From: a bacterium
GTDB taxonomy: Bacteria > Patescibacteriota > Patescibacteriia > 2-12-FULL-60-25
DNA length: 64,000 bases
Reading direction: 5' to 3'
Assembly (NCBI GenBank): GCA_021796435.1
Contig: JAJYXM010000016.1
Span: 1,060,625-1,124,624 of the forward strand
Shown: one piece after another, positions 3,983 to 52,008 of the stretch
Layout: each line of letters starts with the position of its first letter
Numbering within the stretch: the stretch's first letter is position 1
Made by a program: the position numbers and the translations under genes
The notes under the pieces: generated by a model
The model's database searches: none
Seen by the model: only the letters and a program-made list of their open reading frames with translations
What the model was told of the DNA's origin: nothing

Positions 3983-3997
3983 ACATCTTGAGAAGCC

Positions 3998-4958: not shown

Positions 4959-5014
4959 CCCTTATTGGATTCGAGGTCTCGTAAGCGGTTGCTGGCCTGT
5001 AACAACTACAACCT

Positions 5015-6238: not shown

Positions 6239-6254
6239 TCGGATCAACGGCTCT

Positions 6255-6299: not shown

Positions 6300-6334
6300 G
6301 GAAGCCAGCAATTACAAATTAATCATTCACATCT

Positions 6335-6703: not shown

Positions 6704-6715
6704 ACATCCACGCTT

Positions 6716-7495: not shown

Positions 7496-7507
7496 CACTT
7501 ATAACCT

Positions 7508-9049: not shown

Positions 9050-9055
9050 ACACTT

Positions 9056-10710: not shown

Positions 10711-10715
10711 AACCT

Positions 10716-11348: not shown

Positions 11349-11353
11349 AACCT

Positions 11354-13081: not shown

Positions 13082-13085
13082 ACCT

Positions 13086-13364
13086 ATGCCCGAAGACACA
13101 ACAACCAATTCAGCAGAAGCCACACCGGCACCGGTGGAAGAAAAACCAGTGGAGACACCGCCGGTGGAGGTCAAAAAGAAATTCACACTGGAAAAAGTAG
13201 ATGCGGAGAATGTGAAAAAAGTCGATTCACGTCCTGATGTAACGATCATTAACATTCCCAATCTGCAAAAGCAAAAAGAAGAGGTCGAAGACATGATAGG
13301 CAAATTACAAACGCAACTCGATCAGATTAATGAGGTCCTGTTCGAGTACGCAAAACTTCCATAG
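13086..13364 (+). CDS. Small Pro/Glu-rich phage protein with coiled coil
   Basis: This 92-residue protein has an acidic Pro/Thr/Glu-rich N-terminal half (residues 1-40) and a C-terminal heptad-like helix (LQKQKEEVEDMIGKLQTQLD). No family is recognised. It lies 4 nt after the large structural gene and 2 nt before the next ORF, so it is part of the late operon. It may be a chaperone or virion linker. Start context ATAAACCTATG. Confidence 0.6.
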   Translation: MPEDTTTNSAEATPAPVEEKPVETPPVEVKKKFTLEKVDAENVKKVDSRPDVTIINIPNLQKQKEEVEDMIGKLQTQLDQINEVLFEYAKLP

Positions 13365-13366
13365 CT

Positions 13367-13564
13367 ATGAACAACGACGATCAAAACAAAATAGATCCGC
13401 AATTAGGTTCGCTCTTGAGGCAACTGCGCGATATTCCCATTCTCGACGTAGCACCGACCGATACGCCAAGAACGCCGGTCAGTTTCGCGCTGTATGAAAA
13501 CGGCGGTACGCGTCGGTTTTACATTTTCTTCAATGGCAACTGGAGGTACGTAACCCTTACTTAA
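13367..13564 (+). CDS. Small phage protein, unknown
   Basis: This 65-residue ORF starts 2 nt after the preceding stop and ends 4 nt before the LysM gene. The C-terminal half is a compact beta pattern (RFYIFFNGNWRYVTL) that resembles short domains attached to fibres. Tight packing between genes on both sides supports it being real. Confidence 0.6.
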   Translation: MNNDDQNKIDPQLGSLLRQLRDIPILDVAPTDTPRTPVSFALYENGGTRRFYIFFNGNWRYVTLT

Positions 13565-13568
13565 ATCT

Positions 13569-14903: not shown

Positions 14904-14909
14904 ATCTCT

Positions 14910-21960: not shown

Positions 21961-22030
21961 AGATTCATGACTCTACCCGCACTATTCCTGCTTCGGTTAG
22001 GTGAATGACGATGACAAGATTATTACAATA

Positions 22031-22064
22031 ATAGGCGACGGCAGAAGAACCTGCCATCGCCTAT
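22031..22064. terminator. Bidirectional hairpin between convergent genes
   Basis: ATAGGCGA/TCGCCTAT and GGCAG/CTGCC form a long stem with one mismatch and a 6-nt loop. It sits between the plus-strand gene ending at 21,960 and hisS ending at 22,068 on the minus strand. T-runs are weak, so efficiency is uncertain. Confidence 0.55.
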
Positions 22065-22067
22065 CGA

Positions 22068-23378: not shown

Positions 23379-23430
23379 AGCGTCTTCTCCGCCGGTCGGG
23401 TCTCCTTGTCAAGGAACTGCATGACGTAAT

Positions 23431-23459
23431 GGTTTAGCATCTTATGCTGCCAGCGTCAA
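23431..23459 (-). promoter_or_regulatory. Putative hisS promoter
   Basis: On the minus strand TTGACG (23,454-23,459), a 17-nt spacer and TAAACC (23,431-23,436) lie about 50 nt upstream of hisS. A small stem (TCCTTG/CAAGGA) follows in the leader. No T-box features were recognised. Confidence 0.45.
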
Positions 23460-23504
23460 TGCACTTCCTCCAGTTACCCTACGTACCAAGGCGGAACTTA
23501 TGCG

Positions 23505-24803
23505 TTAGTTTAATTTTTTTGAGAAAGAATCGAGATCATCTATTACGACCAGAGTGGAACGATCCTGGCAAGCCACTTCGACTTGATGTTTGGGGCTAAA
23601 ATCCTTTTTCAGGATTATGCGATGCGTCGGATGACCATGTCCGTGGCACCCTCCTCCCGTATCGATTACGGCTCGGTGCCCGTTTTTCCTTAAACTGCCG
23701 ACCAGCTCGATCGCGGCCGCATAATCTACGGCCGGCTCTTCGCAAGAGACGTGGAAGCATCTGTGTTGATCCTTGTAATCGAAAAGTCCGCACTGCTTGA
23801 GCATTTCGATGGTCCCTGAATGTCCGAAGCCGAAACCAATCGCCGGCAAGTCCCTCTTGCCATACATGCCGACCAACCAATCGTACCGCCCACCACCTGA
23901 AAGTGCCCCGAATTTCTTCTCCTTATCCGAAACTTCAAATATTATGCCGGTGTAGAACGATCCACGAGCCACGGACAGATCCAGACGACAGATATCATAA
24001 ATCCCGTACCATCGCAGGAGCGCCGAGAGCCGTTTGAGCCTTTCCAGTATCTGTAGAGACTTGTCGGCAATACGTCCGTTGGTCTTTTCGATTTGCGCGA
24101 TCCCCTCGTCAAAAGCGCCTTTTACAGAAATGGCCTCGATGATCGACTCTATCTTGCCCATGTCCAAACCGAGCTTTTGGAATCTCTGGATGAATTCCTG
24201 CTTATCTATCTTTTCGATGTCGTCCACGATCTTCACCGCGGTATAATAATCTCTCTTATCGACGCCAGCGCAGTCCAAGATGTTCTCCAGGATCTTCCTC
24301 TCGCCGATGAGGATCTCCACTTCGCCATATAATCCGAGATTCCTATAGATGCTGGCGACGCAGGCCAGGACTTCCGCATCGGTTTCCACCGAACCGCAGC
24401 CGATGACATCGGCATCCGTCTGCCAAAATTCCCTTGCCCTATCCTGTTTAATCACATCCTCCTGCCTCCATCTTTTGGATGTATTGAACCAACGGATCGG
24501 TAGCGCAACCTCCTCGAGTTCCTGGACCATCCTGGCCCTGGTAGGCGTCTGTTCTGGGATAAGCGTAAGGCGGTTGTTCCGCTTATCCACGAAACTGAAG
24601 GTCTGACCAATCAACCCTTCCGACCAGGGCGGTTTGACCTCGTACAGGTCCCTTCTCTCTATTGAAGGCGGGCTGATTCCCCTGAAGCCAAAAGATTCCA
24701 GCGTCCCCTCCACCGTCTCGCAGACCTTGCGCCGCTTCGCCCATTCCTCGGGATAGATGCTCTGGAAACCTTCCAGTGATATGTAATTGCGTTCCTTGTC
24801 CAT
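23505..24803 (-). CDS. HisRS-like paralogue lacking the motif 3 arginine
   Basis: This 432-residue protein has the class II core: motif 2 as KRWRQEDVIKQDRAREFWQ and a histidine-loop equivalent ARGSFYTG in place of ARGLDYYTG. Motif 3 reads GFGFGHSGTIEML, without the conserved Arg that contacts ATP. The C-terminal domain contains a Cys/His-rich run (GGGCHGHGHPTH) not normal for the anticodon domain. It could be a regulatory HisZ-like protein, a resistance form, or an enzyme using the fold for another amino acid product. It follows the transporter gene by 5 nt and is probably cotranscribed with it. Confidence 0.8.
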   Translation of the reverse strand: MDKERNYISLEGFQSIYPEEWAKRRKVCETVEGTLESFGFRGISPPSIERRDLYEVKPPWSEGLIGQTFSFVDKRNNRLTLIPEQTPTRARMVQELEEVALPIRWFNTSKRWRQEDVIKQDRAREFWQTDADVIGCGSVETDAEVLACVASIYRNLGLYGEVEILIGERKILENILDCAGVDKRDYYTAVKIVDDIEKIDKQEFIQRFQKLGLDMGKIESIIEAISVKGAFDEGIAQIEKTNGRIADKSLQILERLKRLSALLRWYGIYDICRLDLSVARGSFYTGIIFEVSDKEKKFGALSGGGRYDWLVGMYGKRDLPAIGFGFGHSGTIEMLKQCGLFDYKDQHRCFHVSCEEPAVDYAAAIELVGSLRKNGHRAVIDTGGGCHGHGHPTHRIILKKDFSPKHQVEVACQDRSTLVVIDDLDSFSKKLN

Positions 24804-24808
24804 GTCGA

Positions 24809-25900
24809 TCAGGGCTGGCTTTTCCTGCGCGGGAACAGTCGCATCTTCCGGAGAAGATCGATGATTTTCTCGTTATATTCTTTCTTAAGGACGAAATGCC
24901 CCAAAAGCGAGATGACAATCATCGCTGTCACGACTTTCCATCTGTATCCGGCGTAAATATTCCAGATTTTTGCCATACCGAGATCCATCAGATATGGCCA
25001 GGCGACGATACCGACCAGGGCCAGCACCAAACCCGGCGTCTTTCCGATGCCGATTTTTTTGGTCAAAAATTGTATGGACGCTACGGCACTACCTATGGTG
25101 GACGTAGCCAAAGCAAAAATAACCATCAGCAGCAGGCTACCCAAGAGCAGAGTCGGCCTAAAGAATAATCCGGTCAGCACGACGAAAGCCATATATAAGC
25201 CGAACCATAGGCCTCCCCATAGACTTAATTTGACCGGATCTTCTTTTTGTTCGAAGCGCTGCCACATCATCGGGTCCGTGAAGACGCCGGAAATGATGCC
25301 TAGGAAACCCAAAGGAAAGACCCAAGCGACACCGGCAGGCGTGATCATGTGCAAATTAGGATTGATGCCGAATCTACTCGTCCAAATCGAAAGCATAGCC
25401 AGCAAAAAGACAGACAGCATCTGGAGTGAATAATAGCCAAGGTCGGTCAATACGCTGCCACGCAGGCCATATCTGAAGATGTAAAACAGGATCAGCAATG
25501 AGAAAACGATGATCGAAGGCACGCTGTAGGCGCTATCGAGGAAGTGATATGAGGCGACATCCTGCCCTCCTCCCAGGCCTATAAGCAGGGCTTGCATGTT
25601 CATGATCACGGCCATCGCTGCAATGAACAACGAGAATAGGATGAGAGGGATGAAATCTATCCACTTCTTGAATTCAGGGATCTTCTTCGTGACCAAACCG
25701 AAAAGCGGCATGGCCAGGATATTCCCTGCAACCCAAAAAAGCGATGGGATTATCCCCATCGTATACATGAAGGCCATGGTCGCGATCATACTGACGCCCC
25801 AAGACCAAGATGCCGCAAGGCTTATTCCTACTCGCCAGTAGCTCATGCTCTTGATGTCGTCCTGGTTCTCTTTCCTTTTCAGGATTTTGCCTAAAAACAT
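24809..25900 (-). CDS. Multi-pass membrane transporter, possibly APC/SSS-like
   Basis: This 363-residue protein has about ten hydrophobic segments and short charged loops. The N-terminal SWSWGVSMIATMAFMYTMG resembles the first broken helix of the LeuT-fold (APC and sodium/solute symporter) families, and the chain is shorter than a typical SSS protein (about 450). Substrate cannot be read from the sequence. It is the first gene of a two-gene unit with the HisRS-like paralogue, so histidine or a histidine-like compound is a reasonable guess. Start TTAGTATG without SD. Confidence 0.65.
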   Translation of the reverse strand: MFLGKILKRKENQDDIKSMSYWRVGISLAASWSWGVSMIATMAFMYTMGIIPSLFWVAGNILAMPLFGLVTKKIPEFKKWIDFIPLILFSLFIAAMAVIMNMQALLIGLGGGQDVASYHFLDSAYSVPSIIVFSLLILFYIFRYGLRGSVLTDLGYYSLQMLSVFLLAMLSIWTSRFGINPNLHMITPAGVAWVFPLGFLGIISGVFTDPMMWQRFEQKEDPVKLSLWGGLWFGLYMAFVVLTGLFFRPTLLLGSLLLMVIFALATSTIGSAVASIQFLTKKIGIGKTPGLVLALVGIVAWPYLMDLGMAKIWNIYAGYRWKVVTAMIVISLLGHFVLKKEYNEKIIDLLRKMRLFPRRKSQP

Positions 25901-26010
25901 ACTAATTTAGAATGTTAAAATTCTTATTGGGAGCTAAGCCTTTCTTTCGTTTTAAGGGTATCACCATAAAGAATATTGAGTCAATTTACAGTTCGGGCTG
26001 TCGAACAACT

Positions 26011-26571
26011 TTAATTCCATCCCCTTACTCCAGCTCGCGCCAACAATTTTGCAGTCTCCAGCTCCCTGTTCTCCACGACCCATCTATACAAGACCGGGGA
26101 GACAACTGCCGAAAGAGCGATATTGCCGGCCAAGTGGTACAGCGTAAACGGGATTTGCCCGGTCAAAGCGAGCATGAATGGCATCTTGAACATAAGAACG
26201 CCCATACCGATTCCCGTAACAGCGTCGTAGATAAGTGTCGCGACAATGGCATAGCCGACGTAGTATCTGACTTTGTTGGGCTTATTTTTCAGATAAATTC
26301 CGGCAAGTGCGCCCAGTACGCCGTAGGTTGTCGCCGTGATCAAGGACCATTGGCCCAAGGTGCCGGTGATAAGATCAAAACCAAATACGGCAAGCAAACA
26401 AAAAATGAGACCGGAAAGCCAGCCCCATTTTTTTGAGAATGGCATCATGCTGGACATGATCGGCTCGACATTCGGCGGATGTGGCGCAAGGCGTAAGCCA
26501 AGGACGACAAGCAATCCGATGAAATATTTGATGGTGTTTTGGGGAGTTTTCATATAAAAAGATTTCAACAT
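26011..26571 (-). CDS. ECF transporter S-component-like membrane protein
   Basis: This 186-residue protein has five or six hydrophobic helices and an early segment LRLAPHPPNVEPIMSSM. A PPNVEP phrase near the end of the first helix is common in a group of small ECF-type substrate-binding (S) components. The energising ECF-A and T proteins are not nearby. Substrate, probably a vitamin or cofactor precursor, is unknown. A second in-frame ATG at 26,553 (MKTPQN) is an alternative start. It lies beside the comF remnant, 62 nt from it. Confidence 0.65.
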   Translation of the reverse strand: MLKSFYMKTPQNTIKYFIGLLVVLGLRLAPHPPNVEPIMSSMMPFSKKWGWLSGLIFCLLAVFGFDLITGTLGQWSLITATTYGVLGALAGIYLKNKPNKVRYYVGYAIVATLIYDAVTGIGMGVLMFKMPFMLALTGQIPFTLYHLAGNIALSAVVSPVLYRWVVENRELETAKLLARAGVRGWN

Positions 26572-26632
26572 CGCGTGCCTGGTTGAGCAAGGTCAAGGAT
26601 ACACATAGTTATGCATCGGACAAATGAGAGCA

Positions 26633-26746
26633 TCAACTCCCCACGGCTAGCGCAAGACCAAAAACTTTTTCAGCCGCCTTCAAAACCCGCGCCGCTTCCT
26701 GCATGGTCGCACCTGTCGTGACCACATCGTCCACGAGCAGGATGTT
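26633..26746 (-). pseudogene. Remnant of the comF 3' end (left repeat of the island)
   Basis: These 114 bp repeat the last part of comF at 37,330-37,449 with one substitution and a 6-bp in-frame deletion. They still encode NILLVDDVVTTGATMQEAAR and the stop codon in the comF frame. The sequence upstream in this frame is island DNA, so it is not part of a working gene. Together with the intact copy it forms the long direct repeats around the island. It is best read as the displaced original 3' end of comF after insertion. Confidence 0.92.
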
Positions 26747-26879
26747 CAAACGTACATTCAAGTTGCTGCGCGATCTGCGGGCACAAGGCATATCGCACAT
26801 CGAGGCCGTTGCAGAGCGGTACAGGATCGCGTCGCAAATGATCGAAGAACTTATACCAGGACATCCGGCGATGACTTGA
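26742..26879 (+). CDS. Small ORF at the island's left boundary
   Basis: A 45-residue ORF (MFKRTFKLLRDLRAQGISHI, ending in EELIPGHPAMT) starts within the last bases of the left comF repeat and stops before the helicase terminator. The amino acid pattern (amphipathic helices, HTH-like AVAERYRIASQM) looks coding rather than random. It could be the end of a longer island gene, for instance a recombination gene cut by an earlier rearrangement, or a short real gene. No family recognised. Confidence 0.3.
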   Translation: MFKRTFKLLRDLRAQGISHIEAVAERYRIASQMIEELIPGHPAMT

Positions 26880-26899
26880 CACGAAACCCAGAAACAGAA

Positions 26900-26945: not shown

Positions 26946-29465
26946 TCAATCATCGTCCTCAAGAAGACGGAGGATCGCGCTCCGAGGATAGTAGTCGAAG
27001 ATCTGTCCGCCTTGGCCTTTACCTGGACGGGGATTTAGCTTTGCTGCGGTGACCCTGCGCTCCAGGGTGGTCGCGGAACAACCAAGATTGTTTACGTATG
27101 CGTTGAGCGTACCCCAGTCCTCACCGTCCAACACGAAGAAACCATTGGCTTCGGCTCTCGGCAGATCTTGAAGGAGGTCAGAACACGCCTGTCGCACCTC
27201 ATCAAGAGGATAGAACTGCAGCTTGTGGCCATTGCAATCCCTGCCGTACTTGAAGCGATGTACGCTCCGGGCTATGCGGATCTCGACGACCGGACTGCTA
27301 ATGCCGATGAGCGATGCAGCAGCATGACGCGAAGCCCACTGCTTGCCCTCAAGTTCGAACGTCCCCTTGGAGTCGGCCTGCGGAAGGTCTTCCAACAGGT
27401 CCACACAGGCCTTCTTCACCTGACTGAGCGGGTAGCAATCGTAGCGCTGCCCACCAGGCATGCGTCCGGCTTTGCCGGCGACCCCGTTTTTTTCGCAGTA
27501 GCTCTTCATGGTAGTGACTTCGAGCTCAAGCGTCCTCGCCAGAGCAGACAGATTACCCCATCTGTCGCCTTCGAAATCGAAGAATCCGTCCTCCCCTATC
27601 AGCATCAGGTCTTCCAGAAGATTGGCGCATACCGAACGCGCATCGCTGAGACGGAAGAGGGTCGAAGGCTTCCCCAGACACATCCCCTCTTTGCGGGGAC
27701 ACTTGCTGGCATATAAACGAACACGGACAGCCGCCCTGGAGAGCTCGATCTTGTCCGCCAGCTTATTTATCGTGCCCCATACCTCACCTTCGATGGTAAC
27801 GAAGCCTCGTCTATCTGCCTTAGGCTTATCAGCCATGATGTCGGAGCAAAGCGCCCGTACGTCATTAAGCGCATAGTATATCCAGAACCTGCCCATCGTG
27901 TTCTTCACGCGGCGTGTCCTTACCTTGCCTTTACGGAGCCGCGACCTGACGGCAGAAGTTGAGATCTCGAGCAGATGCGCGCAAGTCGACATGCTCGCCC
28001 AGATCTCACCGTCCGCTTCGAGGGTACCGCGGGATCCTGCCTTGGGCTCTTCCTGCTGTTCCGTGTACATGTCGACGACTACAAGCTTGGGCTTGGCGTC
28101 TTTGGGCAGATACGGCGACTCTTCGAGATTACTACCACGTATCCGGACGCCGTTGCCGATCAACATGCCGCCGACCGGGATTTCCTCGCCAGGCTTGCCA
28201 TAGAGTGCAGGTGCGCTCAAAGGCGCGAACTTGGTGCCCTGGAAATGCCCGTCGAGTATCAGCGCGACCTTATAACCGTCCTCCAAAGGACGCAGAGCGC
28301 GGCCCATCCCTTGCTCGTAGAAGACGCGGCTCTTGGTCGGACGCAACATCATGCAGACTTCGGCATTCGGCGCATCCCAGCCTTCGCGCAGCACCATGAC
28401 GGACGTGAGCAGGCGTATCTCGTTCTCGTTGTAGGCCTGCAGCAGGATGTTGCGTTCCAGGTCCGGTGTCTGCCCATGTATGCAAGCCGTGGCGATGCCC
28501 AGCGAACCGATGGCTTCGGCGAGTTCCTCGGCTGCCTTGACGCTCGGGCAGATGGCATAGGCCTGCCGCTGCGCCAGGTTATAGTCGGAAGACTCGTAGA
28601 GCCGACGTACGGTCTCGCACATGACTGACCAGTGCTTGCTCATCAGATCCTGGAGTTTCGACTCGTCGTAATCAGGACCATTACGGCCCTCCACGATCGG
28701 GAGGCCGTTAAGGCTGACGTCGAATTCGACCCTGCCCCAGGCCAAAGGAGCTAGCCAGCCGTTCTCGATTCCCCAGCGCACCGACCTCCGGTCGAGGCAC
28801 GTCTGGAAGTGTGTATCGGCGAATCTGTCACGCGGGCCGTAAAGCACCTGGCCGTTCTCCAGTTCGACCGGAACGTAGCCGCCTTTGGCCGAGGTGGTCA
28901 GGTAGTCCGGCGTGGCCGAGAATCCGACGATGACCGCCTCGGAGAACTGCTCGAAGCCCGCCTGTGCCGGATCGATATAGCCCCAGTGACATTCGTCGCG
29001 GATGATCAATTGTGGGTCGAGCTGTTGGCGGATGCGCTGAGCTAGTTTGTTAAAGCTCGCGTCCGTGGTGAGTACGACTGCCGAATGGTCCATGCCGCGG
29101 ACGGCAATCGTCTCACCATCTCCGTCCTGGATGTTGGTCAGACTTGAGACGTGGCCCAACACACCGCCGGTGAACTTGACGATGACGCGAGCCGTCTGCT
29201 CGAGCAGGGTCTTGGTAGGGACGATGACGAGCGAACGCAAGCCGACCGCAGACGCGACCATGGCGGCGAATAGCACGGTCTTGCCCAGCCCTGTAGCGTG
29301 ATTGACGTAAGCACGCCGGCTGCCTTGAAAGTCGTTGAGCCAACGGACTGCCGACTCAAGGGTCTCGACCTGGTAGGGGCGTAGGACCAACGGCAAATCG
29401 CCCGGCTGGGCGATCAGCTGACCGATGCTTTGCCCCAGGACGGCGCGGATTTCCGTATGTTCCAT
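26946..29465 (-). CDS. SF2 helicase with five C-terminal 74-residue repeats
   Basis: This 839-residue protein has an N-terminal superfamily 2 helicase of the SSL2/Res type: Walker A HATGLGKT (56-63), Walker B DECH (157-160), motif III GFSATP (181-186) and motif VI QGMGRALRP (385-393). From residue 485 on there are five units of about 74 residues. Each starts G-(E/K/D)-x-W (486, 560, 633, 707, 781), continues with an LA..L.(I/L)S.. helix pair, and ends with a (F/Y)YPL..VR..C.DLLEDLP phrase. The repeats look like serial helix-turn-helix units for binding nucleic acid. No nuclease or methylase partner is present, which argues against a restriction subunit. I start at ATG 29,465 (AAGGAAG upstream); a longer ORF exists but runs through the promoter. 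Confidence 0.88.
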   Translation of the reverse strand: MEHTEIRAVLGQSIGQLIAQPGDLPLVLRPYQVETLESAVRWLNDFQGSRRAYVNHATGLGKTVLFAAMVASAVGLRSLVIVPTKTLLEQTARVIVKFTGGVLGHVSSLTNIQDGDGETIAVRGMDHSAVVLTTDASFNKLAQRIRQQLDPQLIIRDECHWGYIDPAQAGFEQFSEAVIVGFSATPDYLTTSAKGGYVPVELENGQVLYGPRDRFADTHFQTCLDRRSVRWGIENGWLAPLAWGRVEFDVSLNGLPIVEGRNGPDYDESKLQDLMSKHWSVMCETVRRLYESSDYNLAQRQAYAICPSVKAAEELAEAIGSLGIATACIHGQTPDLERNILLQAYNENEIRLLTSVMVLREGWDAPNAEVCMMLRPTKSRVFYEQGMGRALRPLEDGYKVALILDGHFQGTKFAPLSAPALYGKPGEEIPVGGMLIGNGVRIRGSNLEESPYLPKDAKPKLVVVDMYTEQQEEPKAGSRGTLEADGEIWASMSTCAHLLEISTSAVRSRLRKGKVRTRRVKNTMGRFWIYYALNDVRALCSDIMADKPKADRRGFVTIEGEVWGTINKLADKIELSRAAVRVRLYASKCPRKEGMCLGKPSTLFRLSDARSVCANLLEDLMLIGEDGFFDFEGDRWGNLSALARTLELEVTTMKSYCEKNGVAGKAGRMPGGQRYDCYPLSQVKKACVDLLEDLPQADSKGTFELEGKQWASRHAAASLIGISSPVVEIRIARSVHRFKYGRDCNGHKLQFYPLDEVRQACSDLLQDLPRAEANGFFVLDGEDWGTLNAYVNNLGCSATTLERRVTAAKLNPRPGKGQGGQIFDYYPRSAILRLLEDDD

Positions 29466-29526
29466 CTTCCTTATCTTTCCGAATTTTCGAGGTCCGTGAT
29501 TCCATCGCCATGATCGGCGATGGGCT

Positions 29527-29555
29527 AACTTACGAATAAAACCGACTTTTGTCAA
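29527..29555 (-). promoter_or_regulatory. Island promoter for the helicase gene (TTGACA-N17-TAAGTT)
   Basis: A perfect -35 TTGACA (29,550-29,555), 17-nt spacer and TAAGTT (29,527-29,532) on the minus strand. The predicted leader of about 55 nt contains a 7-bp hairpin (CATCGCC/GGCGATG) that may affect translation. Confidence 0.7.
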
Positions 29556-29589
29556 TCGCCGTGGAATGGTTGTTACCGTAAAAAAAGAA

Positions 29590-29618
29590 GAACCCGCATC
29601 CATCCAGGACACGGGCTC
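29590..29618 (-). terminator. Terminator behind the tandem RNase III gene
   Basis: GAGCCCGTGTCC pairs with GGATGCGGGTTC (minus strand, with wobble pairs), followed by TTCTTTTTTT. It lies 19 nt after the stop codon and upstream of the helicase promoter. Confidence 0.85.
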
Positions 29619-29636
29619 GATATCAGGTCTTTGAAT

Positions 29637-31103
29637 TCAGCCGACCTTACGCCGGGCCAATTCTTCCAGGGCCACACGGGCAGCGGAGATCTCGGCCGAT
29701 TTCTTGTTACGGCCGGTACCGCTTCCGAGCGTCTCCTCCCCCATCACGACATTGCAGGTGAATATCGGGTCGTCATCGGGGCCCTCTCGCCCGGAAAACT
29801 CGTAGCTCACGCGAGGCAGATGGCGCTGGGAGAGAAGGTTGTTGAGGAGCAGCTTAGGATTCCTTTCGCTCCAGGTCCGTCCCTCTTCGATGAAAGCGGA
29901 CATGCGGGAGTGGATGATGGCGTCTACGATCATCCTCGCTGTGCCGATACCCCGGTCAAGGTACACTGTGCCCAAGACCGCTTCGAAAGCATCAGCTAAT
30001 GCCTTACGGCGCGTATCAGGGAATCTCTCGAAGTTGTCCAGCTCCTTAAGGCCAAATCGGACGGCTCCGTGCAATCCCAGCTTTTCGACAGCGACATCCG
30101 CCAACTTCCTGTTCGCCACGAGCGAATCTCGGGCCCCGAATATCCTATTGATATCTCCGCTGAATTTGTCCAGAAGGAACTCCGTAACCGTGAACTCAAG
30201 GACCGCATCACCCAGGAACTCGAGCCGTTCGTTGTGGCCATAGCTCGAGGGGTGTTCATAGTGGAGAGACTTGTGGATGAGCGCTTGGTATAGGAGGTCA
30301 CGGTCCGAGAAAGCCGCATCTAGACGTTGCTCGAGCGTCGAAAGCACGGACTCCATTCCAGACGGGATGACCGGTTCTGAGTAGAGCAGGTAGAGACGCT
30401 TGCGCAGCCTCTTGCCCAGAGATTCGAGTACTAATGGTGTCCATTCCCCGATGCACTCGACTGCTTGTACGGCTGCGGCCTGAGTCGCGTATCCTACGTC
30501 CGGACCACTGCCTTTCGCGACCAGGACGTATCCGACGAAACAGCCCACGGTGATTTGGCCATCCTCTTCGAGGGGCTCGAAGTAAGCGGGCAGACCCAGG
30601 CGGAGCAGCGCCATCTCTTGGATGGCATTTAACGGGTCATCCGTCTTCTTGATCGTCTCATCGAGAGTCGCGACTGCGCAGCGCGTAAAGGCCGTATGGC
30701 AGGCCCTGAAGCCTTGTTCGAGCAGTAACGCTCCGAACGCCATCTTGGTCGCCAAGACCCGTTGCTTCCTGGGACGCCAGATAGGGCGCGTGCCGGAGCC
30801 GTCCATCATCATGTTCAGCCCCATGGCCACAGCGACTTCGTGGAGGCCCTTCTGCAGGAAGGCGTCGCGCCAAGGGGTCATGCTACTTTCGCGTCGGTCA
30901 TGCCTGGTCCGGAACATGTGCTCGGAGGCAAGAAGCCTGAGAAGCGACTGGCCCATGATGAGGAACCGGAGATTGTCTGGGGTGACGGTCAAGCGTTCTT
31001 CCGTCAGCGCACTCTGAATGAAGTCCGAGAAAGGACCAGCATCCGGGAAAGGTACACCGATCCGCCCTTCGACATGGAGTAGGTCCAATTTCAATCCCAC
31101 CAT
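29637..31103 (-). CDS. Tandem RNase III: dead domain, dsRBD, intact domain, dsRBD
   Basis: This 488-residue protein is about twice the length of RNase III. The C-terminal half is a complete enzyme: NERLEFLGDA (291-300), ADAFEA with Asp371 and Glu374, and a dsRNA-binding domain (about 412-484). The N-terminal half aligns with the same fold but lacks the catalytic acids: NLRFLIMGQS (44-53) lines up without gaps to NERLEFLGDS with Glu to Leu and Asp to Gln, and LATKMAFGALLLEQG (117-131) replaces the second motif. It is followed by a dsRBD-like segment (155-220). The domain order recalls Dicer and Drosha, where two RNase III domains pair within one chain; here one side is inactive. AGGAGG lies 2 nt before the ATG, so GTG at 31,100 is an equally likely start. 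Confidence 0.88.
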   Translation of the reverse strand: MVGLKLDLLHVEGRIGVPFPDAGPFSDFIQSALTEERLTVTPDNLRFLIMGQSLLRLLASEHMFRTRHDRRESSMTPWRDAFLQKGLHEVAVAMGLNMMMDGSGTRPIWRPRKQRVLATKMAFGALLLEQGFRACHTAFTRCAVATLDETIKKTDDPLNAIQEMALLRLGLPAYFEPLEEDGQITVGCFVGYVLVAKGSGPDVGYATQAAAVQAVECIGEWTPLVLESLGKRLRKRLYLLYSEPVIPSGMESVLSTLEQRLDAAFSDRDLLYQALIHKSLHYEHPSSYGHNERLEFLGDAVLEFTVTEFLLDKFSGDINRIFGARDSLVANRKLADVAVEKLGLHGAVRFGLKELDNFERFPDTRRKALADAFEAVLGTVYLDRGIGTARMIVDAIIHSRMSAFIEEGRTWSERNPKLLLNNLLSQRHLPRVSYEFSGREGPDDDPIFTCNVVMGEETLGSGTGRNKKSAEISAARVALEELARRKVG

Positions 31104-31138
31104 AACCTCCTGGTCGGTTGTCCAATGTACGGATAACC

Positions 31139-31167
31139 AAGTTAGACCGTATCGACTACCATGTCAA
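31139..31167 (-). promoter_or_regulatory. Island promoter for the tandem RNase III gene (TTGACA-N17-TAACTT)
   Basis: Minus strand TTGACA (31,162-31,167), 17-nt spacer, TAACTT (31,139-31,144). It matches the helicase promoter in both boxes except one base of the -10, giving an island consensus TTGACA-N17-TAASTT. Confidence 0.7.
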
Positions 31168-31186
31168 ACCCTCTTAAGTAACTGAA

Positions 31187-31217
31187 AAGGGCGACATCTT
31201 GGATCGATGCCGCCCTT
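31187..31217 (-). terminator. Terminator of the rnc-sigma-DnaA-like operon
   Basis: AAGGGCGGCATC pairs with GATGTCGCCCTT on the minus strand, loop of 7 nt, followed by TTC. It lies 28 nt after the DnaA-domain gene and just ahead of the next promoter. Confidence 0.75.
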
Positions 31218-31244
31218 GTGTTTGGCGTCCAGAATGGCGCCTTA

Positions 31245-33017
31245 TTAACGAAGGGAAGACAGAAGTTCCTGCGCCATGCGGGTAGCTTCCGCCAGTGACG
31301 TATCAGCGAGCTCTTGTGCTTGAGCCAGACTCCCGCTGAGTGCCTTGAGCGTGTTGTACGCCATCTCCAGCTGTGCCACGTGCATCGCCAGGTCATCACG
31401 CTTCTTCCGCAGCTCAGGCAGTACCCGTTCAAGTTCAGCGACTACCGAAGCCAATGTGCCCGTCCCGCCTAAGGTAACCGAGGCATGAATCTTGGTTCCC
31501 GCGGTTATGGTCGGAGCGTTGGGCGCGGCTGCGCGCATGACTGGGCGGGCCGGCGTATGTCGGTTCCGCGCTGATCCGGGCGCAGACGGACGCATCGGTC
31601 CATCCATGCTTTGGACTTGTGAGGAGACCAGAATGATCGTCCTCCAGCCATCCTTCTGCTGGACATGGCCGCTGGCGACAAACCATTCAAGTGCTGCCGT
31701 GGACTGATTGGCACTCAGCTTGAAGCGGATCTGCAGCATGGGTAGGGCTCCGCCCACCAACTTTTCCCCATGCACGTCGTGGGCACGCATCAGCAGGTGA
31801 GCGAACATCTCCCCGTAGGTGACGATAGGGCGGGCCGAAGGGAGCTGCGCCAAGTCGACGGCGGAAGTTGACGATCCACTTGTCATACGTCGCCGGCCAG
31901 CACTTGAGATGCGTGGTTTCAAGGTCTCGGCGCGTGTCTTGGCACGCCGATGATACGGCGTGGTAGCGTCCCTAGGTTTGGCTCCCGGGCTTTTTAGTTT
32001 CTCCTGGAGGTCCTCGATCCCTTCTGTTTTGAGCAAGGTGACCTGACTCCATGGCTCGGAACCCTGTAGATGGCCATCGGCCACCAATGACGCTAATGCT
32101 CTATGTGCTTCCGCCCGCATCAGGTGGGCTCGTGACATCAGTATGGCCACGGGTGACGTGACGCTCCAGACGCCGTCCCGCTCTACACCGTGCTCCATCA
32201 ACAGACGGCTCAAGGTGGCGACGTTCCTGAGTCGCGGTGAATCGTGCAGTTCTAGACGCGGTTCAGGACCGGACTTGCCCACACCTTCAGACGCCTGGGT
32301 TTCCTCGGGACGCTTCAGGGGAGCCAAGAAGTCACGCGGATCGATGGCATCGCCACTTGATCCGATGATGCCCTCGATCGAGGCGAGCTCCTGGCGGATC
32401 CTTGGGTCGGTCTTGAGCAGGTCGTCGATGTTCTCGACGGCATGCATGACGGTCGTGTGGTCACGGCCGCCGAACACGCGTCCGATTTCCGGGAAACTGC
32501 CATCCAATCTTTTACGGCATAGGTACATAGCCATCTGTCGGGCGAAAGCCACACCCTTGTGCCTATCCTGCTTGAACAGTTCAGCCGGTTCGATCCCGTA
32601 ATAGGTGCAGACCGCGGACATGACCCTGCCAGCCCCATCCAAAAGAGGTCGCTCCGGAAGTACACCCGCGCCGCGTTCCATGGTTTGCGTCGACCCTTCC
32701 GCATTCGCCTCTGGCCCTCGGGCCAGAACGCGGACACGGTCAATGACGCGGCCCATGGCGACATCGGGTGTACCCTCGAAAGTCTGGTTACGCGGTACGA
32801 ACCCGATCCCTTCGGCACAGACGCTGCAGAGACCGCGTTCTGCGTCGGCGATACATTCATCCTTGCCGCACTTGGCGCAGCGTCGTGTCGGCGCACTGCA
32901 ACCGGCACACTCATCCGCGCCTTGTTCGCTGCGGCAGATGTCGACAGGAATGAAGTCGTTGATCATCCGACAACGGACCTTGCCGCCGTCGGCACCTTGG
33001 ATGGCTTCAGACGGCAT
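31245..33017 (-). CDS. Zinc-cluster protein with stand-alone DnaA domain IV
   Basis: This 590-residue protein starts with a Cys-rich region (Cys16, 28, 37, 40, 47, 50, 55, 64, 67; several CxxC pairs) likely to bind zinc. Residues 127-205 match DnaA domain IV, the helix-turn-helix that reads DnaA boxes: VCTYYGIEPAELF, ARQMAMYLCRK and the signature FGGRDHTTVMHA (182-193). The AAA+ ATPase of DnaA is missing. Two winged-helix-like segments follow (about 260-330 and 395-465), then a C-terminal coiled coil (510-590). It may guide replication or transcription of the island from DnaA-box-like sites. A strong SD (GGAGGTGATC, 4 nt before the ATG) defines the start; it overlaps the sigma gene by 11 nt. 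Confidence 0.85.
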   Translation of the reverse strand: MPSEAIQGADGGKVRCRMINDFIPVDICRSEQGADECAGCSAPTRRCAKCGKDECIADAERGLCSVCAEGIGFVPRNQTFEGTPDVAMGRVIDRVRVLARGPEANAEGSTQTMERGAGVLPERPLLDGAGRVMSAVCTYYGIEPAELFKQDRHKGVAFARQMAMYLCRKRLDGSFPEIGRVFGGRDHTTVMHAVENIDDLLKTDPRIRQELASIEGIIGSSGDAIDPRDFLAPLKRPEETQASEGVGKSGPEPRLELHDSPRLRNVATLSRLLMEHGVERDGVWSVTSPVAILMSRAHLMRAEAHRALASLVADGHLQGSEPWSQVTLLKTEGIEDLQEKLKSPGAKPRDATTPYHRRAKTRAETLKPRISSAGRRRMTSGSSTSAVDLAQLPSARPIVTYGEMFAHLLMRAHDVHGEKLVGGALPMLQIRFKLSANQSTAALEWFVASGHVQQKDGWRTIILVSSQVQSMDGPMRPSAPGSARNRHTPARPVMRAAAPNAPTITAGTKIHASVTLGGTGTLASVVAELERVLPELRKKRDDLAMHVAQLEMAYNTLKALSGSLAQAQELADTSLAEATRMAQELLSSLR

Positions 33018-34062
33018 GAGCGATCACCTCCAAATCCTGAAGCACGTCCACGATCTCGGCGATCTCCTGACCGGTGATGCCAAGGCTTCTTTCGAGCTGC
33101 TCGAGGGCAACCACTTCGATCTGACGGATACGCTCGCGGGTCACTTCGTAACGGGCGCCGATCTCCTCGAGCGTCATTGGGTCGAAGTCACCCAGGCCGA
33201 AACGCAGCCTCAAGACCATGGCGGAACGCGGGGGCTGTGAATCGACTGCCGCCTCGATGCGTCCGACTGCTTGGCGGTATTCCTCATAGAGCCGCCGCGC
33301 TTCGACGATCGTCTCGGTGGACGGTGGACCGAAATCCGTGATATCCGCAACGGTCAAATCGTCATGCCCTGTAGCATATATGGGTGCATCCAGTTCGACC
33401 TTGCCGCGATGCAGAGTGCCGATCAGCCTGACCACATCGGACAGTCCGAGCTTGGCCGCGAGTTGGGTATCGTACGTCTTGATCTTCTGGAAGACGGCCA
33501 ACTCCTTGGGCCACCGTCCAGTCTCGATATATAGATCCCTCAAGGCGCGTCGGGTCAACGACAGCGCCTCCTGATAATGCACAGGGATGCGGTAAGGCTC
33601 TTTGAATGTCTGGTCACACAGGGCACGGGTTATAGCCTGCCGTACCCAGCTGTAGGCATAGGTGCTGAAGCGGTACCCCAGCTCGATGTCGAACAAATCG
33701 ATAGCTTTCATCAGGCCGATGACGCCCTCTTGGACCATGTCGAGCAAGGGCAGACCGCGACCGGTATAGCTAAGCGCGATCTTGATGACCAGTTTGATGT
33801 TGCCGTACACGAGCAGATCCCGTGCTCGGAGCCGTGCCACTTCGTCACCGTGGTGGAACTTATCGAACAGGAAGTCGAAATCTTCCTTCTCCTTGAGCAT
33901 CGGGAACTGCCTGAGCTGTTCCAGATAGACCCGGATGTCGTCATAGAAACCTTTCCTCGGGTCCGTATCTATGTTCTCGAGGATCTGGTCACCGACGGCT
34001 TCGGCACGCTCGATGTCGCGCTCGGCCCGGGCCTCGCGCCACTTCTGCCTCGCTGCATTCAT
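33007..34062 (-). CDS. Sigma-70 family factor encoded by the island
   Basis: This 351-residue protein carries sigma regions 2, 3 and 4 but only a short region 1. Region 2 runs from about 82 to 152 (YGNIKLVIKIALSY, DMVQEGVIGLMKAID, YRFSTYAYSWVRQAITRAL, the part that melts and reads the -10 box). Region 4 is at 283-330 (LTLEEIGARYEVTRERIRQIE, partly shown; it binds the -35 box). Length fits a group 2 sigma factor rather than a short ECF type. GGAGGT lies 5 nt before the ATG, inside the end of the RNase III gene, and the two genes overlap by 4 nt. It presumably directs RNA polymerase to the island's TTGACA promoters; that link is inferred. Confidence 0.92.
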   Translation of the reverse strand: MNAARQKWREARAERDIERAEAVGDQILENIDTDPRKGFYDDIRVYLEQLRQFPMLKEKEDFDFLFDKFHHGDEVARLRARDLLVYGNIKLVIKIALSYTGRGLPLLDMVQEGVIGLMKAIDLFDIELGYRFSTYAYSWVRQAITRALCDQTFKEPYRIPVHYQEALSLTRRALRDLYIETGRWPKELAVFQKIKTYDTQLAAKLGLSDVVRLIGTLHRGKVELDAPIYATGHDDLTVADITDFGPPSTETIVEARRLYEEYRQAVGRIEAAVDSQPPRSAMVLRLRFGLGDFDPMTLEEIGARYEVTRERIRQIEVVALEQLERSLGITGQEIAEIVDVLQDLEVIAHAV

Positions 34063-34838
34063 CGTCTACCTCCATTACGAGAGCGGCGGACAGCGGAAGC
34101 CTGGCTGCAGGATTCCGTGATGCGTCCCTCCCAATCCTTCAGGGTCTCAGCAGCCCGTCTGGCTGCATCAACCTCCGCCTCTTTCTTGCTCGCGCCTTGC
34201 GCTTGCGACACAAGCACGAGTCCGACGTAACATCCGATGACGTAAGTCTTGGCGTGATCCGGGCCGTGCTCACGCAGCACCTGATATTTCGGAGTGAGGC
34301 CGAAACGCGCCTGCATATCTTCTTGGAACTTCCCCTTGGGGTCGTACTGGTCTGAGATGCTGCGCAACAGATGCACATGGAGGTAACGGTCGAGGAAAAG
34401 CCTACAGACGCCCAGACCTTGGTCGAGGAAAAGGGCGGCGACGAAAGCCTCGAAGACATTGGCGCAAATGTGCCTGAAAGCCTTGGGGTTGGATCGGTTG
34501 TCGCTGACCTGACCACGGGAAATGAACAGGGCCTCGTGCAGGCCACATGACATCGCGACGTCGGCCAGCGTATCCGTGCAGACCAACGCAGCACGGAAAC
34601 TCGTCAGGTGACCCTCGGCCTTGTCCGGAAACTTGCGGTAAAGCTGTTCAGTCACGATCAGCTCTACAACTGAGTCACCCAAGAACTCCAATCGTTCGTT
34701 GTGCCCGGTAGGGTGTGCGGCACACTCGTTCAGGAATGACCTGTGGGTCAGAGCTTCGACGAGGAGTAGACGGTTGTTGAAGCCTACACCGAGCCTCTCC
34801 TCAAGCGCAGCAAGCCGATCTTCAGTCGTCTTATCCAT
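34059..34838 (-). CDS. RNase III with Asp-to-Asn change in the second motif
   Basis: This 259-residue protein has normal RNase III architecture: nuclease domain (10-155) and dsRBD (166-234). The first signature is intact, HNERLEFLGDS with Glu51 and Asp55. In the second, the usual ADxFEA reads ANVFEA, so the metal ligand Asp is Asn127 while Glu130 is kept. The change may lower or alter metal-dependent cleavage. Its dsRBD (YVGLVLVSQAQGASKKEAE) resembles the first dsRBD of the tandem RNase III (FVGYVLVAKGSG), suggesting that they share a common source. It is the first gene of a three-gene operon with the sigma factor and the DnaA-like protein. Confidence 0.92.
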   Translation of the reverse strand: MDKTTEDRLAALEERLGVGFNNRLLLVEALTHRSFLNECAAHPTGHNERLEFLGDSVVELIVTEQLYRKFPDKAEGHLTSFRAALVCTDTLADVAMSCGLHEALFISRGQVSDNRSNPKAFRHICANVFEAFVAALFLDQGLGVCRLFLDRYLHVHLLRSISDQYDPKGKFQEDMQARFGLTPKYQVLREHGPDHAKTYVIGCYVGLVLVSQAQGASKKEAEVDAARRAAETLKDWEGRITESCSQASAVRRSRNGGRR

Positions 34839-34891
34839 CCTTTACTGATCCCTTTCTGTCTTTCTTCGGTTGGAAAGAGCGAGGCACCATA

Positions 34892-34959
34892 AATTGACCA
34901 GAAAAAAACGGTTTAGTCAAGACGAAATTGTTGACAAAAACCGTAAAAATTGGTATTTC
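34892..34959. promoter_or_regulatory. Symmetrical divergent promoter region of the island
   Basis: An inverted repeat of ACGGTTTAGTCAA (34,908-34,920) and TTGACAAAAACCGT (34,931-34,944), 10 nt apart, places two outward-facing TTGAC -35 boxes each followed by AAACCGT. Rightward: TTGACA, 17 nt, TATTTC (34,954-34,959), towards the HrpB-like gene. Leftward: TTGACT, 17 nt, TCAATT (34,892-34,897), towards the RNase III operon. Such symmetry suggests joint control by one regulator, perhaps an island protein. Confidence 0.6.
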
Positions 34960-35004
34960 GCATTATGCACATTCAATATCATCCCACAGAAAGGCGGATA
35001 CGTG

Positions 35005-37284
35005 ATGGCGAAGGAACTTCCGGTCTGGGGGGCCATTCCGAGCCTCCTCGAAGCGGTCAGTCGAGGCCGCAACGTCGTGCTTACGGCGCCACCCGGTTCC
35101 GGCAAGACGACGCAGGTGCCGCAAGCCCTGCTCGACAGCGGGTCTGTCCGAGGCTCGATCGTCGTGGTGCAGCCGCGGCGGGTCGCCTGTCGCGCAGTCA
35201 GCAAGTGGGTCGCGTCCGAACGCAAGATCGGGATCGGCGGAGAGGTTGGGTACATCGTCCGATACGACGGCAAGACATCATCGGATACCAAGATCCTGTA
35301 CGTGACAGATGGTGTCCTATTGCGCTTCCTCGAAAGGGATCCCGGACTCTCCTGGGCCGGTGCCGTCGTCTTCGACGAATTCCATGAGCGTCGGGCCACG
35401 ACCGACGTAGCACTGAGCCTGCTACGCACCGAACAGATGCGGCGACCATCACTACGGCTGCTCGTGATGTCTGCCACGATCGAGAGTACGCAGGTGAGCC
35501 GCTACCTTGATGCGGTCAACCTGGACGCGGCGGGCACGAGTTTTCCGGTCGAGGTACGTTACCAACCGATCGGTTCACATGACGAAGCGTTGGATGCGGT
35601 CGCTCCCGCGGTCGCCAGCCTGCATTCGTCGGACAAACCAGGAGACATCCTGGTGTTCCTGGCGGGCAAGGAAGAGATAAAGCGCGTCGCCGAGTCTATC
35701 GCTGCGTTCAAGCTGAAGGATGCGATCGTCCTGCCGCTACACGGAGAGCTGATGCGGAAGGCACAAGACCGCGTCTTCCGACCGACGAATGGGCGCAAAG
35801 TGATCCTGGCTACGAACGTCGCAGAAACCTCCGTGACCATACCGAACGTGCGCTGCGTCATCGATACGGGCTACGAGAAACGGGCGGATTATGATCCGGC
35901 CCTCGGCATCAACCGTCTGTCACTCATGCGCATCTCAAGGTCTTCAGCCGACCAACGCAAAGGCCGCGCGGGACGGGAAGCGCCTGGCCTGTGCATCCGC
36001 CTTTGGGACCGCAAGATACAGGACGAGATGGCCGAGCATGCGCCCGTCGAGATGTTGCGTACCGACCTTTCCGAGGTCGTCATGACGCTCAAGTCAGTCG
36101 GTATCGTGGATCCTCTGACTTTCCCCTTCCTGGAGCAACCGGAGACGGAGCGGCTGGAAGCGGCCGAACAGGGCCTGACGGATCTTGGTGCGCTGGGAGA
36201 AGACCGACGTTTGAGCCCTTTGGGCTGGCGCATGCTGCGTCTGCCTTTGCCGCCGCGCTATGCGCGTATGGTGGTGGAGAGCGAACACAGCGGCTGCCTC
36301 AAGGAGGTCGCCAGCATCGCAGCCCTGATGTCCGGGCGTCCGATACTCTACGACCAACGTGAGCTCGGGGAACGCGAGCATGGTCGGCTGCATTTCGCCC
36401 AGGACGATTCATCGGACTTCTTCTCGCTCCTCGAGATGTTCCGGGTCTCGCGTATACACCGTTGGACCGAGGGGTGGTGCGAGCAGAACGGCGTGAACTT
36501 CGATGCGCTCGAAGAGGCGATCCGGTTGCGGCGAAAGATCATCCATGCGGCGTTCACCCGCGGTTCGCCGCAGACCAACCGCCCCGGGGAGCCTGAGGCT
36601 ATCCGGCGCTGCATCCTAGCTGGGCTGGTCGATCGGGTGGCGCAGCAGGAGTCGCAATACAACTACCGGCTCACCAACGGTCTGGAGTGTAGCCTAGACG
36701 GGAACACTGTCGTGACCGGAAAACTGTTGGCTGCCGCCGATGTCAGGCTCAAGCGTCTGAAGAAGAACGATGCAAACCAGACAGCGACGCTGGGCTATGT
36801 CACTCGCGTGGATGCGGACATGTGCAGACGCGTGATGCCACGCTTGCTCAAGACCGTCATCATTCCCGTGTCATTCGACCGCAGCCTGGGGATCCTCACA
36901 GTGCGCGAAACTACCCGCTCCGGCGAGCTTCTGCTCGACAGCCTCGAGAGAAGGGTCGACATCGTCGAGGCTGTACATATCCTCGCCGAGCAGAAGCGGC
37001 GGGCCAAACTCAACGGATGGCATCGCGTAGATGTATCACCCGGCTTAAGACGTAAGTCGTATGTCGTCTGGCAGGGCCAGAAGATGCCGGTAGAGGCTCA
37101 AGATGCAGGCCCACACTGGGCCAGCGTCTATGGCAGCCAGTCACCTAAGATCATCCTGCGCGAGAAGATCGTCGTCCTGCCCGGGATCGAGGATGAAACG
37201 CCAGAGCCTTTGCCTGCGGATATCAGGCAGAAGGTGGAACGTACATCTTCCGCACTGTCCAAGCTGCTGAAAGCTTGCAGCTGA
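35005..37284 (+). CDS. HrpB-like DEFH-box helicase
   Basis: This 759-residue protein is a DExH helicase of the HrpA/HrpB type: Walker A APPGSGKTT (28-36), QPRRVACRA, Walker B DEFH (124-127, the HrpB form), SAT (156-158) and motif VI QRKGRAGR. A winged-helix and helical-bundle region and an HrpB-like C-terminus follow. Relatives unwind or remodel RNA, and HrpB itself has no settled role. It is the only plus-strand gene of the island and is divergent from the RNase III operon. I start at ATG 35,005, 7 nt after AAAGGCGG; an in-frame extension to 34,870 would cover the promoter. Confidence 0.92.
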   Translation: MAKELPVWGAIPSLLEAVSRGRNVVLTAPPGSGKTTQVPQALLDSGSVRGSIVVVQPRRVACRAVSKWVASERKIGIGGEVGYIVRYDGKTSSDTKILYVTDGVLLRFLERDPGLSWAGAVVFDEFHERRATTDVALSLLRTEQMRRPSLRLLVMSATIESTQVSRYLDAVNLDAAGTSFPVEVRYQPIGSHDEALDAVAPAVASLHSSDKPGDILVFLAGKEEIKRVAESIAAFKLKDAIVLPLHGELMRKAQDRVFRPTNGRKVILATNVAETSVTIPNVRCVIDTGYEKRADYDPALGINRLSLMRISRSSADQRKGRAGREAPGLCIRLWDRKIQDEMAEHAPVEMLRTDLSEVVMTLKSVGIVDPLTFPFLEQPETERLEAAEQGLTDLGALGEDRRLSPLGWRMLRLPLPPRYARMVVESEHSGCLKEVASIAALMSGRPILYDQRELGEREHGRLHFAQDDSSDFFSLLEMFRVSRIHRWTEGWCEQNGVNFDALEEAIRLRRKIIHAAFTRGSPQTNRPGEPEAIRRCILAGLVDRVAQQESQYNYRLTNGLECSLDGNTVVTGKLLAAADVRLKRLKKNDANQTATLGYVTRVDADMCRRVMPRLLKTVIIPVSFDRSLGILTVRETTRSGELLLDSLERRVDIVEAVHILAEQKRRAKLNGWHRVDVSPGLRRKSYVVWQGQKMPVEAQDAGPHWASVYGSQSPKIILREKIVVLPGIEDETPEPLPADIRQKVERTSSALSKLLKACS

Positions 37285-37294: not shown

Positions 37295-37330
37295 AAGGGT
37301 CGCCAACTCATGGCGACCCTTAATTCTTTT
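37295..37330 (+). terminator. Terminator at the right end of the island
   Basis: AAGGGTCGCC, 7-nt loop, GGCGACCCTT and TAATTCTTTT form a clear terminator behind the HrpB-like gene. Its T-run ends exactly where the comF repeat begins. Confidence 0.85.
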
Positions 37331-37449
37331 CAACTCCCCACGGCTAGCGCAAGACCAAAAACTTTTTCTACTCCAGCCGCCTTCAAAACCCGCGCCGCTT
37401 CCTGCATGGTCGCACCTGTCGTGACCACATCGTCCACGAGTAGGATGTT
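37330..37449. repeat. Right direct repeat of the island (3' end of intact comF)
   Basis: These 120 bp match 26,633-26,746 except for one substitution and an extra 6 bp. They include the comF stop codon and the codons for its phosphoribosyltransferase core motif. They are the right attachment-like repeat. Confidence 0.9.
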
Positions 37450-38028
37450 TTTTGGGATACGGATACCGGGTTTTACGTAAAAGACGCCACTGATATTCGC
37501 ATGACGCATTAGGCCATGCCCCAAAGCAGCTTGAGTCGTCAGTGATTCTTTCCTTACCAAGATGTCTGCTATATGCGCCCAAGGCACAATCCTTTCTTTG
37601 ACTATGCCAGTCAACAAACAGGCTTGGTCGAATCCCCTGTTACGGATGCTTTTTGGTGCGCCGATCAGCGGTTGGATGGCCAAGTCAGGCAGACCAGCCC
37701 AAGGCCAGACGTCCAATCGGGCTCCACGCCAAACCCGAATATATTCGGCGACTACAGGCGCGATGACAGTGCCTCCCCGGTATTTGATGGAGTGGATGAC
37801 TTTGCGTAAACCCGGATCGTGATAAAAACCTGCTGCAACCAGTCCATCCAACGCGCTTTTGCGATTACAGCCTTCGACATGATTCGCATGGTTGCACGAA
37901 GGACAAAGGTTCTTCAGGGAGAATTCACATTTCGTGGAGCATTTTTTGCACCACCACGAGCCAAAGTCGTCACATACGACGCAACGCGGCGGAAACGCGA
38001 TGTCGAGCAAATACGAAAAGAATCCCAT
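37330..38028 (-). CDS. comF: ComF family competence protein
   Basis: This 232-residue protein is a full-length ComF: an N-terminal four-Cys zinc motif (CVVCDDFGSWWCKKC, then LCPSCNH) and a C-terminal phosphoribosyltransferase domain with the PRPP loop NILLVDDVVTTGATMQEAA (residues about 194-213). ComF acts in DNA uptake during natural transformation, probably with the ComFA helicase and DprA. dprA is also in this window (50,798). The gene's 3' end is the insertion site of the island, but the reading frame is complete. Confidence 0.93.
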   Translation of the reverse strand: MGFFSYLLDIAFPPRCVVCDDFGSWWCKKCSTKCEFSLKNLCPSCNHANHVEGCNRKSALDGLVAAGFYHDPGLRKVIHSIKYRGGTVIAPVVAEYIRVWRGARLDVWPWAGLPDLAIQPLIGAPKSIRNRGFDQACLLTGIVKERIVPWAHIADILVRKESLTTQAALGHGLMRHANISGVFYVKPGIRIPKNILLVDDVVTTGATMQEAARVLKAAGVEKVFGLALAVGS

Positions 38029-51952: not shown

Positions 51953-52008
51953 CATTTTGACCTGGTGCTGGTAGAAATAAGGACTCTTTGCTATCTTTCC
52001 AAAGAATT

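Follow-up and report, generated by a model that had tools for sequence, protein, structure and literature searches.

What brings genes for two RNase III proteins, two SF2 helicases, a sigma factor and a DnaA-domain protein together at one place of a bacterial chromosome, and do they form a system? The genes lie in a window of 64,000 nucleotides (the whole stretch of DNA analysed) from a genome of 1.63 Mb in 28 contigs (G000), which is 100% complete by the tool's figure. Profile searches of the window revealed all six genes where the earlier note had placed them, with intact family motifs. The host possesses its own RNase III (C1:1185052), RpoD (C1:775628) and full-length DnaA (C1:1498228); therefore the genes of this group are extra copies. 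They are listed here with the surrounding signals and repeats.

26633..26746, minus strand: distal direct repeat, a detached comF 3′ end that matches 37330-37449
26930-26900, minus strand: terminator-like hairpin after HelA, a good hairpin
26946..29612, minus strand: HelA, SF2 helicase of the RadD kind, its C-terminus carrying five MerR/Xis-like winged-HTH modules (ResIII 1e-19, Helicase_C 2e-12)
29590..29618, minus strand: terminator-like hairpin separating the tandem RNase III gene from HelA, with a stem of 12 bp and a T tract
29637..31103, minus strand: tandem RNase III-dsRBD / RNase III-dsRBD protein, RNase III profile twice in one chain (first copy 4.7e-6)
31245..33017, minus strand: Zn-ribbon / DnaA_C / winged-HTH / coiled-coil regulator (Bac_DnaA_C 5.6e-27, residues 132-197)
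33007..34062, minus strand: non-housekeeping sigma-70 factor, regions 2 and 4 detected
34059..34838, minus strand: RNase III, above the TIGR02191 cut-off, overlapping the sigma gene by 4 nt
34839..35004, no strand: divergent control region with TTGACA at 34931 and a perfect DnaA box, TTATGCACA, at 34963-34971
34870..37284, plus strand: HrpB-like DEAH helicase, 449 bits against the HrpB cut-off of 546
37295..37321, plus strand: terminator-like hairpin after HrpB, a good hairpin
37330..37449, minus strand: proximal direct repeat, formed by the intact comF at its 3′ end
37330..38028, minus strand: intact comF (Pribosyltran and double zinc ribbon), the apparent insertion site

Comparison with homologues placed the likely starts of HelA and HrpB at 29465 and 35005. 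These genes form what looks like an inserted cassette that joins RNA-cutting enzymes, a transcription factor of its own and two helicases; what it does is a guess, perhaps defence against invading DNA. Four transcription units had been proposed for it, and this is borne out in part: good terminator-like hairpins stand behind HelA, the tandem RNase III and HrpB. On the promoter side one was readable by eye (TTGACA at 34931), but an automatic scan of the window gave fewer matches than shuffled sequence, with no excess. A dedicated promoter motif was considered and rejected, since the upstream regions showed ordinary TTGACA-17-TAnnnT boxes by eye and the scan showed no excess.

The cassette is bracketed by direct repeats of about 114 bp, which the earlier note had missed. 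They begin at the comF stop codon, and the two copies showed 99% identity over 76 nt plus 100% over 39 nt with one 6-nt deletion; the genome contains these two copies and no third. The relatives G315, G380 and G381 have a single comF and no cassette, and in the sister genome G315 other genes stand downstream of it. The whole 22.0-37.3 kb stretch differs in G315, which is thus not a perfectly clean empty site. Islands integrated in gene 3′ ends likewise duplicate the target end and leave the gene intact, as at this comF; the window cassette differs from them in having no recombinase inside. A Magasanikbacterium pair of cassette genes (L050 7624-11605) is bracketed by an unrelated 31-bp repeat, present in exactly two copies in its genome and sharing no sequence with the comF repeat. 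Because both repeats are unique to their loci, the two cases seem to be insertions, though without a recombinase: no integrase or transposase was found among the window cassette ORFs, nor any recombinase in the L050 pair. Around three other HelA loci (L091, L049 and L035) no flanking repeats of at least 16 bp were found. We infer that the cassette is mobile and was moved by a recombinase acting in trans or since lost.

A serious rival to the defence reading arises here, namely a selfish mobile element whose sigma factor, RNase III and helicases serve its own maintenance (transcript and copy control), with the recombinase supplied in trans. It would account for the unique flanking repeats in two unrelated members and for the duplicated comF 3′ end, as gene-end integration restores its target. 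At the lone internal mismatch between the comF copies the detached copy shares a G with G315. This would fit an incoming element that supplied the intact gene with its end, but a single site is a weak sign. However, integrase, transposase, relaxase and replicase occur in no member, and repeats were found at only two of the inspected members and are mutually dissimilar. We regard this explanation as possible but doubtful; were it right, the element would arrive with transcription and RNA-processing machinery of its own.

The interval from the conserved backbone to the cassette (22000-26600) holds a hisS-like gene, a second His-tRNA-synthetase-like gene, a gene for a 363-aa membrane protein and an ECF-transporter-like gene. 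These were not found downstream of comF in G315, G380 and G381, therefore the region downstream of comF is variable. A 46-aa ORF (26744-26880, plus strand), HTH-like by eye, starts within the distal comF repeat and may be what is left of a gene that the insertion interrupted. Assembly contamination was also considered and rejected; the comF repeats, synteny with G315 on both sides and ABY1 relatives of the cassette speak against it.

Does the set recur? Recurrent co-occurrence at varied loci had been named as the check for a system, and a neighbourhood survey with HelA as the sole bait bore it out. HelA was found in 11 of the 381 genomes of the class sample (ABY1), about 3%. Within the family it occurs in G000 and G402 only, with a repeats-only protein in G408, and it was absent from the three same-genus genomes searched (G315, G380 and G381). 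The relatives are named Uhrbacteria and Magasanikbacteria (Patescibacteria) in public records, and we take their class to be ABY1, whose members are ultra-small bacteria. RNase III, sigma factor, regulator, HrpB and HelA are found together within about 15 kb in G000, G402, G465 and G541, all of them ABY1 Patescibacteria and from several families, at unrelated chromosomal sites, with comF or dnaE adjacent, pilus genes nearby, or a parB-like gene downstream. The arrangements, including smaller forms, are as follows.

Window (G000): RNase III, sigma, Zn/DnaA_C/winged-HTH regulator, tandem RNase III, HelA; HrpB divergent
G402 (L035): HelA, HrpB, DnaA_C protein, RNase III, sigma, Zn/winged-HTH protein, HelA; adjoins dnaE
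G465 (L049/L094): HrpB upstream, then RNase III, sigma-winged-HTH fusion, DnaA_C protein, HelA, HelA
G541 (L091): RNase III, sigma, Zn/winged-HTH protein, HrpB, HelA
G708 (L050/L087), smaller form: sigma-winged-HTH fusion and HelA
G391 and G482, smaller forms: sigma and Zn protein, no HelA

RNase III and sigma genes are adjacent in constant order in 4/4 full sets, overlapping by 4 nt in the window and L035 and by 32 nt in L091, with a 12 nt gap in L049; in two genomes (L049 and L050) the regulator forms a fusion with sigma. HelA stands apart from the other set members in L090, L092 and L093, and contig ends truncate the HelA loci L086, L088 and L089. HelA and the Zn-winged-HTH regulator coincide in 5 genomes (P = 8e-7, a value biased by a regulator profile seeded from HelA neighbourhoods), and this overlap was given no weight as separate evidence. 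The survey shows an accessory chromosomal cassette of ABY1 with the core RNase III, sigma and Zn/winged-HTH(/DnaA_C) regulator, in that order, usually with HelA and HrpB, and its composition varies among the carrier genomes. A chance neighbourhood of unrelated genes, for which the solo HelA copies might be quoted, is scarcely credible and is refuted by the recurrence: the five-part set was met four times with HelA as the sole bait, the RNase III-sigma order is conserved and fusions exist. RNase III, normally a housekeeping enzyme, is here repeatedly tied to a sigma factor in adjacent and mostly overlapping genes, and this pair travels with two helicases on a mobile-looking cassette.

The nearest curated family for HelA is RadD (NF053632, 2e-23), and the RadD structures 6jde and 8h5y are its best PDB relatives both by sequence and by fold. 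With RadD (E. coli YejH, a DNA repair helicase) it has the SF2 core in common, and the core motifs ATGLGKT, DECH, SATPDY and QGMGRALR are intact in HelA and conserved among its relatives. It differs from RadD in scoring 82.5 bits against the equivalog (NCBIfam) cut-off of 720, in carrying winged-HTH modules at its C-terminus and in belonging to an accessory cassette instead of the housekeeping gene set. The modules, of about 70 aa each, number one to six in HelA proteins and five in the window. Each was modelled confidently (AlphaFold, mean pLDDT 86) as two helices set between two beta-hairpins, with a closing helix; a full-length model was poor in the second RecA domain and the linker, and we draw no domain arrangement from it. 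The best sensible PDB match of a module is the excisionase Xis 4j2n (probability 0.99, 2.4 Å over 51 columns, E = 0.28), and PHROGs gave a MerR-like match (3e-4). The repeats resemble a modular DNA-binding array attached to a helicase, and binding is directly testable. A 518-aa protein of G408 (L045 8085-9200, minus strand) consists mostly of five such modules and has no helicase, and the C-terminus of the L036 regulator looks similar to them. It seems that the module is an undescribed DNA-binding repeat common to ABY1.

The cassette RNase III enzymes have the RNase III plus dsRBD architecture of bacterial RNase III. The catalytic signature HNERLEFLGD is intact in the RNase III at 34059-34838 and in the second half of the tandem protein; the first half reads DNLRFLIMGQ at this position and hence lacks the signature. 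Against TIGR02191 (cut-off 166) the former scored 210 bits and the whole tandem protein 190 bits. The tandem protein shares with Dicer and Drosha the two RNase III units per chain; it differs from them in that one of the two is without the catalytic signature and in having no PAZ domain and no fused helicase. An inactivation through Asp-to-Asn change at the second metal-ligand motif was considered and rejected, as the housekeeping RNase III of the same bacteria also has Asn. Both RNase III proteins of the earlier note are present in the window, but the pair is confined to this cassette and the relatives carry one. Processing of dsRNA, which had been proposed for the set, is plausible given its RNase III content. 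In the RNase III tree the cassette copies were not resolved and have long branches. The other helicase aligns over most of the HrpB profile (TIGR01970) and differs from HrpB in its sub-cut-off score and its cassette location.

The sigma factor and RNase III of the cassette are fast-evolving. Six housekeeping sigma factors and one further G000 sigma factor formed a single clade (100/100), with every cassette sigma factor outside it. As read from the sequence, the promoter recognition residues of the cassette sigma factor resemble the housekeeping ones, therefore they indicate no dedicated regulon, and this counts against a self-transcribed set. A sigma-70-like subunit, MzaA, is also known from the described anti-phage system MZA; the window sigma factor matches its C-terminal part (7e-61) through the common sigma core, with a score of 207 against a cut-off of 800, and Pfam and PADLOC scans recognised no further MZA components in the cassette.

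These enzymes bring in another serious rival, a host cassette of RNA metabolism or stress. Here the extra sigma factor would turn on the extra RNase III and RNA helicase for cold shock or structured-RNA decay, and HelA would repair R-loops or transcription-replication conflicts. All the enzymes are of housekeeping kinds, the sigma factor keeps housekeeping-like DNA-contact residues, the RNase III and sigma genes overlap, and RadD is the closest relative of HelA. The insertion marked by repeats, the fast evolution of sigma factor and RNase III, and a helicase limited to a few percent of genomes and missing from the same genus argue against it, and we hold it for a minority possibility.

The regulators have in common a Cys-rich N-terminus and one or two winged-HTH-like domains; some contain a sigma-4-like HTH, and DnaA_C is either fused or separate. 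Regulator relatives were found in L035, L091 and L036, and in L049 and L050 they are fused to sigma. A chromosomal DnaA combines an AAA+ ATPase with DnaA_C, and the window regulator has DnaA_C only, with the RDHTT recognition segment retained. This segment and the perfect DnaA box in the divergent promoter region could suggest a DnaA-type initiator and with it the core of a plasmid-like element, such as the earlier note had proposed. That proposal fails on several counts and is very improbable: the AAA+ domain is missing, no Rep, Par or MOB genes and no replicase, relaxase or recombinase were found, DnaA_C is missing in G541 and L050, and plasmid records yielded a single helicase match at 26%. 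The box is the only perfect one of the window, one per window is the number expected by chance, and it is not conserved in the relatives. Control of the divergent promoter by DnaA through this box was likewise rejected, as a single, suggestively placed box is absent from the relatives.

The cassette matches no described system. PADLOC has no model for the set, its matches being generic helicase or sigma similarity, and a full-text literature search on this combination in Patescibacteria returned no paper, nor did further searches yield anything of relevance (preprints were partly covered, and this is not proof of novelty); the earlier description of an undescribed system thus agrees with these searches. 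In IMG/VR the tandem RNase III and the sigma factor had no match and HelA matched only helicases at 22-28%, so a viral origin was rejected. Plasmid and phage records gave nothing beyond about 23-29% helicase similarity.

Our best guess, with a probability of roughly 0.4, is a self-transcribed conflict cassette directed against mobile elements; this defence reading is drawn from the context and the patchy distribution. The sigma factor and regulator proteins would switch the cassette on. The winged-HTH string would give HelA its hold on DNA, which the helicase would move along or unwind at the cost of ATP. Structured or duplex RNA associated with it (sense-antisense duplexes, transcripts derived from R-loops) would be opened and cut by HrpB and RNase III. 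In the window, the tandem RNase III may work as a ready-made pair in which one centre is active, so that one strand of a duplex is cut. The recurrence with a single bait, the RNase III-sigma adjacency, the fusions, the patchiness, the repeats, the intact motifs and a VIPR-like neighbour in G402 were counted in favour. Counted against were the lack of a DNA-acting nuclease and of any known defence effector in the set, the solo HelA genes, the sigma and regulator pairs without HelA (G391 and G482), the lack of a recombinase and of repeats around L091, L049 and L035, and the statistically unlinked VIPR neighbour. A more specific form is unlikely: surveillance of duplex RNA and R-loops with its own sigma factor, in which the HelA winged-HTH string reads foreign DNA, RNase III and the DEAH helicase destroy its duplex transcripts, and the Dicer-shaped, half-dead tandem protein nicks one strand. 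An immune function would make the cassette a self-transcribed defence based on RNase III, in bacteria about whose defence repertoire little is known.

VIPR is an RNA-guided system reported in 2026, and its published types III and V are reported to be enriched in defence islands (PMC13142463). The G402 cassette directly adjoins a VIPR-like locus, yet this is a separate system. A DinG-like helicase and Vipr-like pair was found there (L046 6671-13500 and L035 1-2330; G402 C2:451670-458310) and also in L059, L142, L144, L145, L146 and L148, in at least seven ABY1 genomes. The G402 Vipr-like protein matches the solved SUSP1 Vipr protein by profile (4.5e-7), and this locus belongs to the VIPR kind; the pair has the look of a cellular form of VIPR in which a helicase is the partner. 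Small-RNA-like arrays of about 25 units in G402 and about 20 in L146 were observed, a G402 unit consisting of a promoter-like TTGACA, about 90 nt and a terminator hairpin. The Vipr-like protein occurs in 11/381 genomes, and among these only G402 has HelA; for an overlap of at least one genome P = 0.28, which gives no statistical linkage. No VIPR relative was found in the window genome. The G402 array as a guide array for the cassette RNase III was rejected, as it belongs to the DinG and Vipr-like locus and is not co-distributed with HelA.

The late-phage region noticed earlier in the window exists at about 0.1-15 kb, but nothing ties it to the cassette. This prophage late region (128-15000, plus strand) encodes terminase, portal/adaptor, major head protein, tail fibre and endolysin, and has a lower GC content of 0.47. 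On the main contig, G000 C1:51000-70900 (L162) has a GC content of 0.645 and unrelated-looking genes, including a sigma factor in a 700-aa frame, a phage-type integrase and a response regulator; it is possibly foreign DNA or an assembly chimera. Another SF2 helicase of the window (51988-54252, plus strand) matched the DpdF model of PADLOC (9e-26) and is likely an ordinary RecQ-type enzyme.
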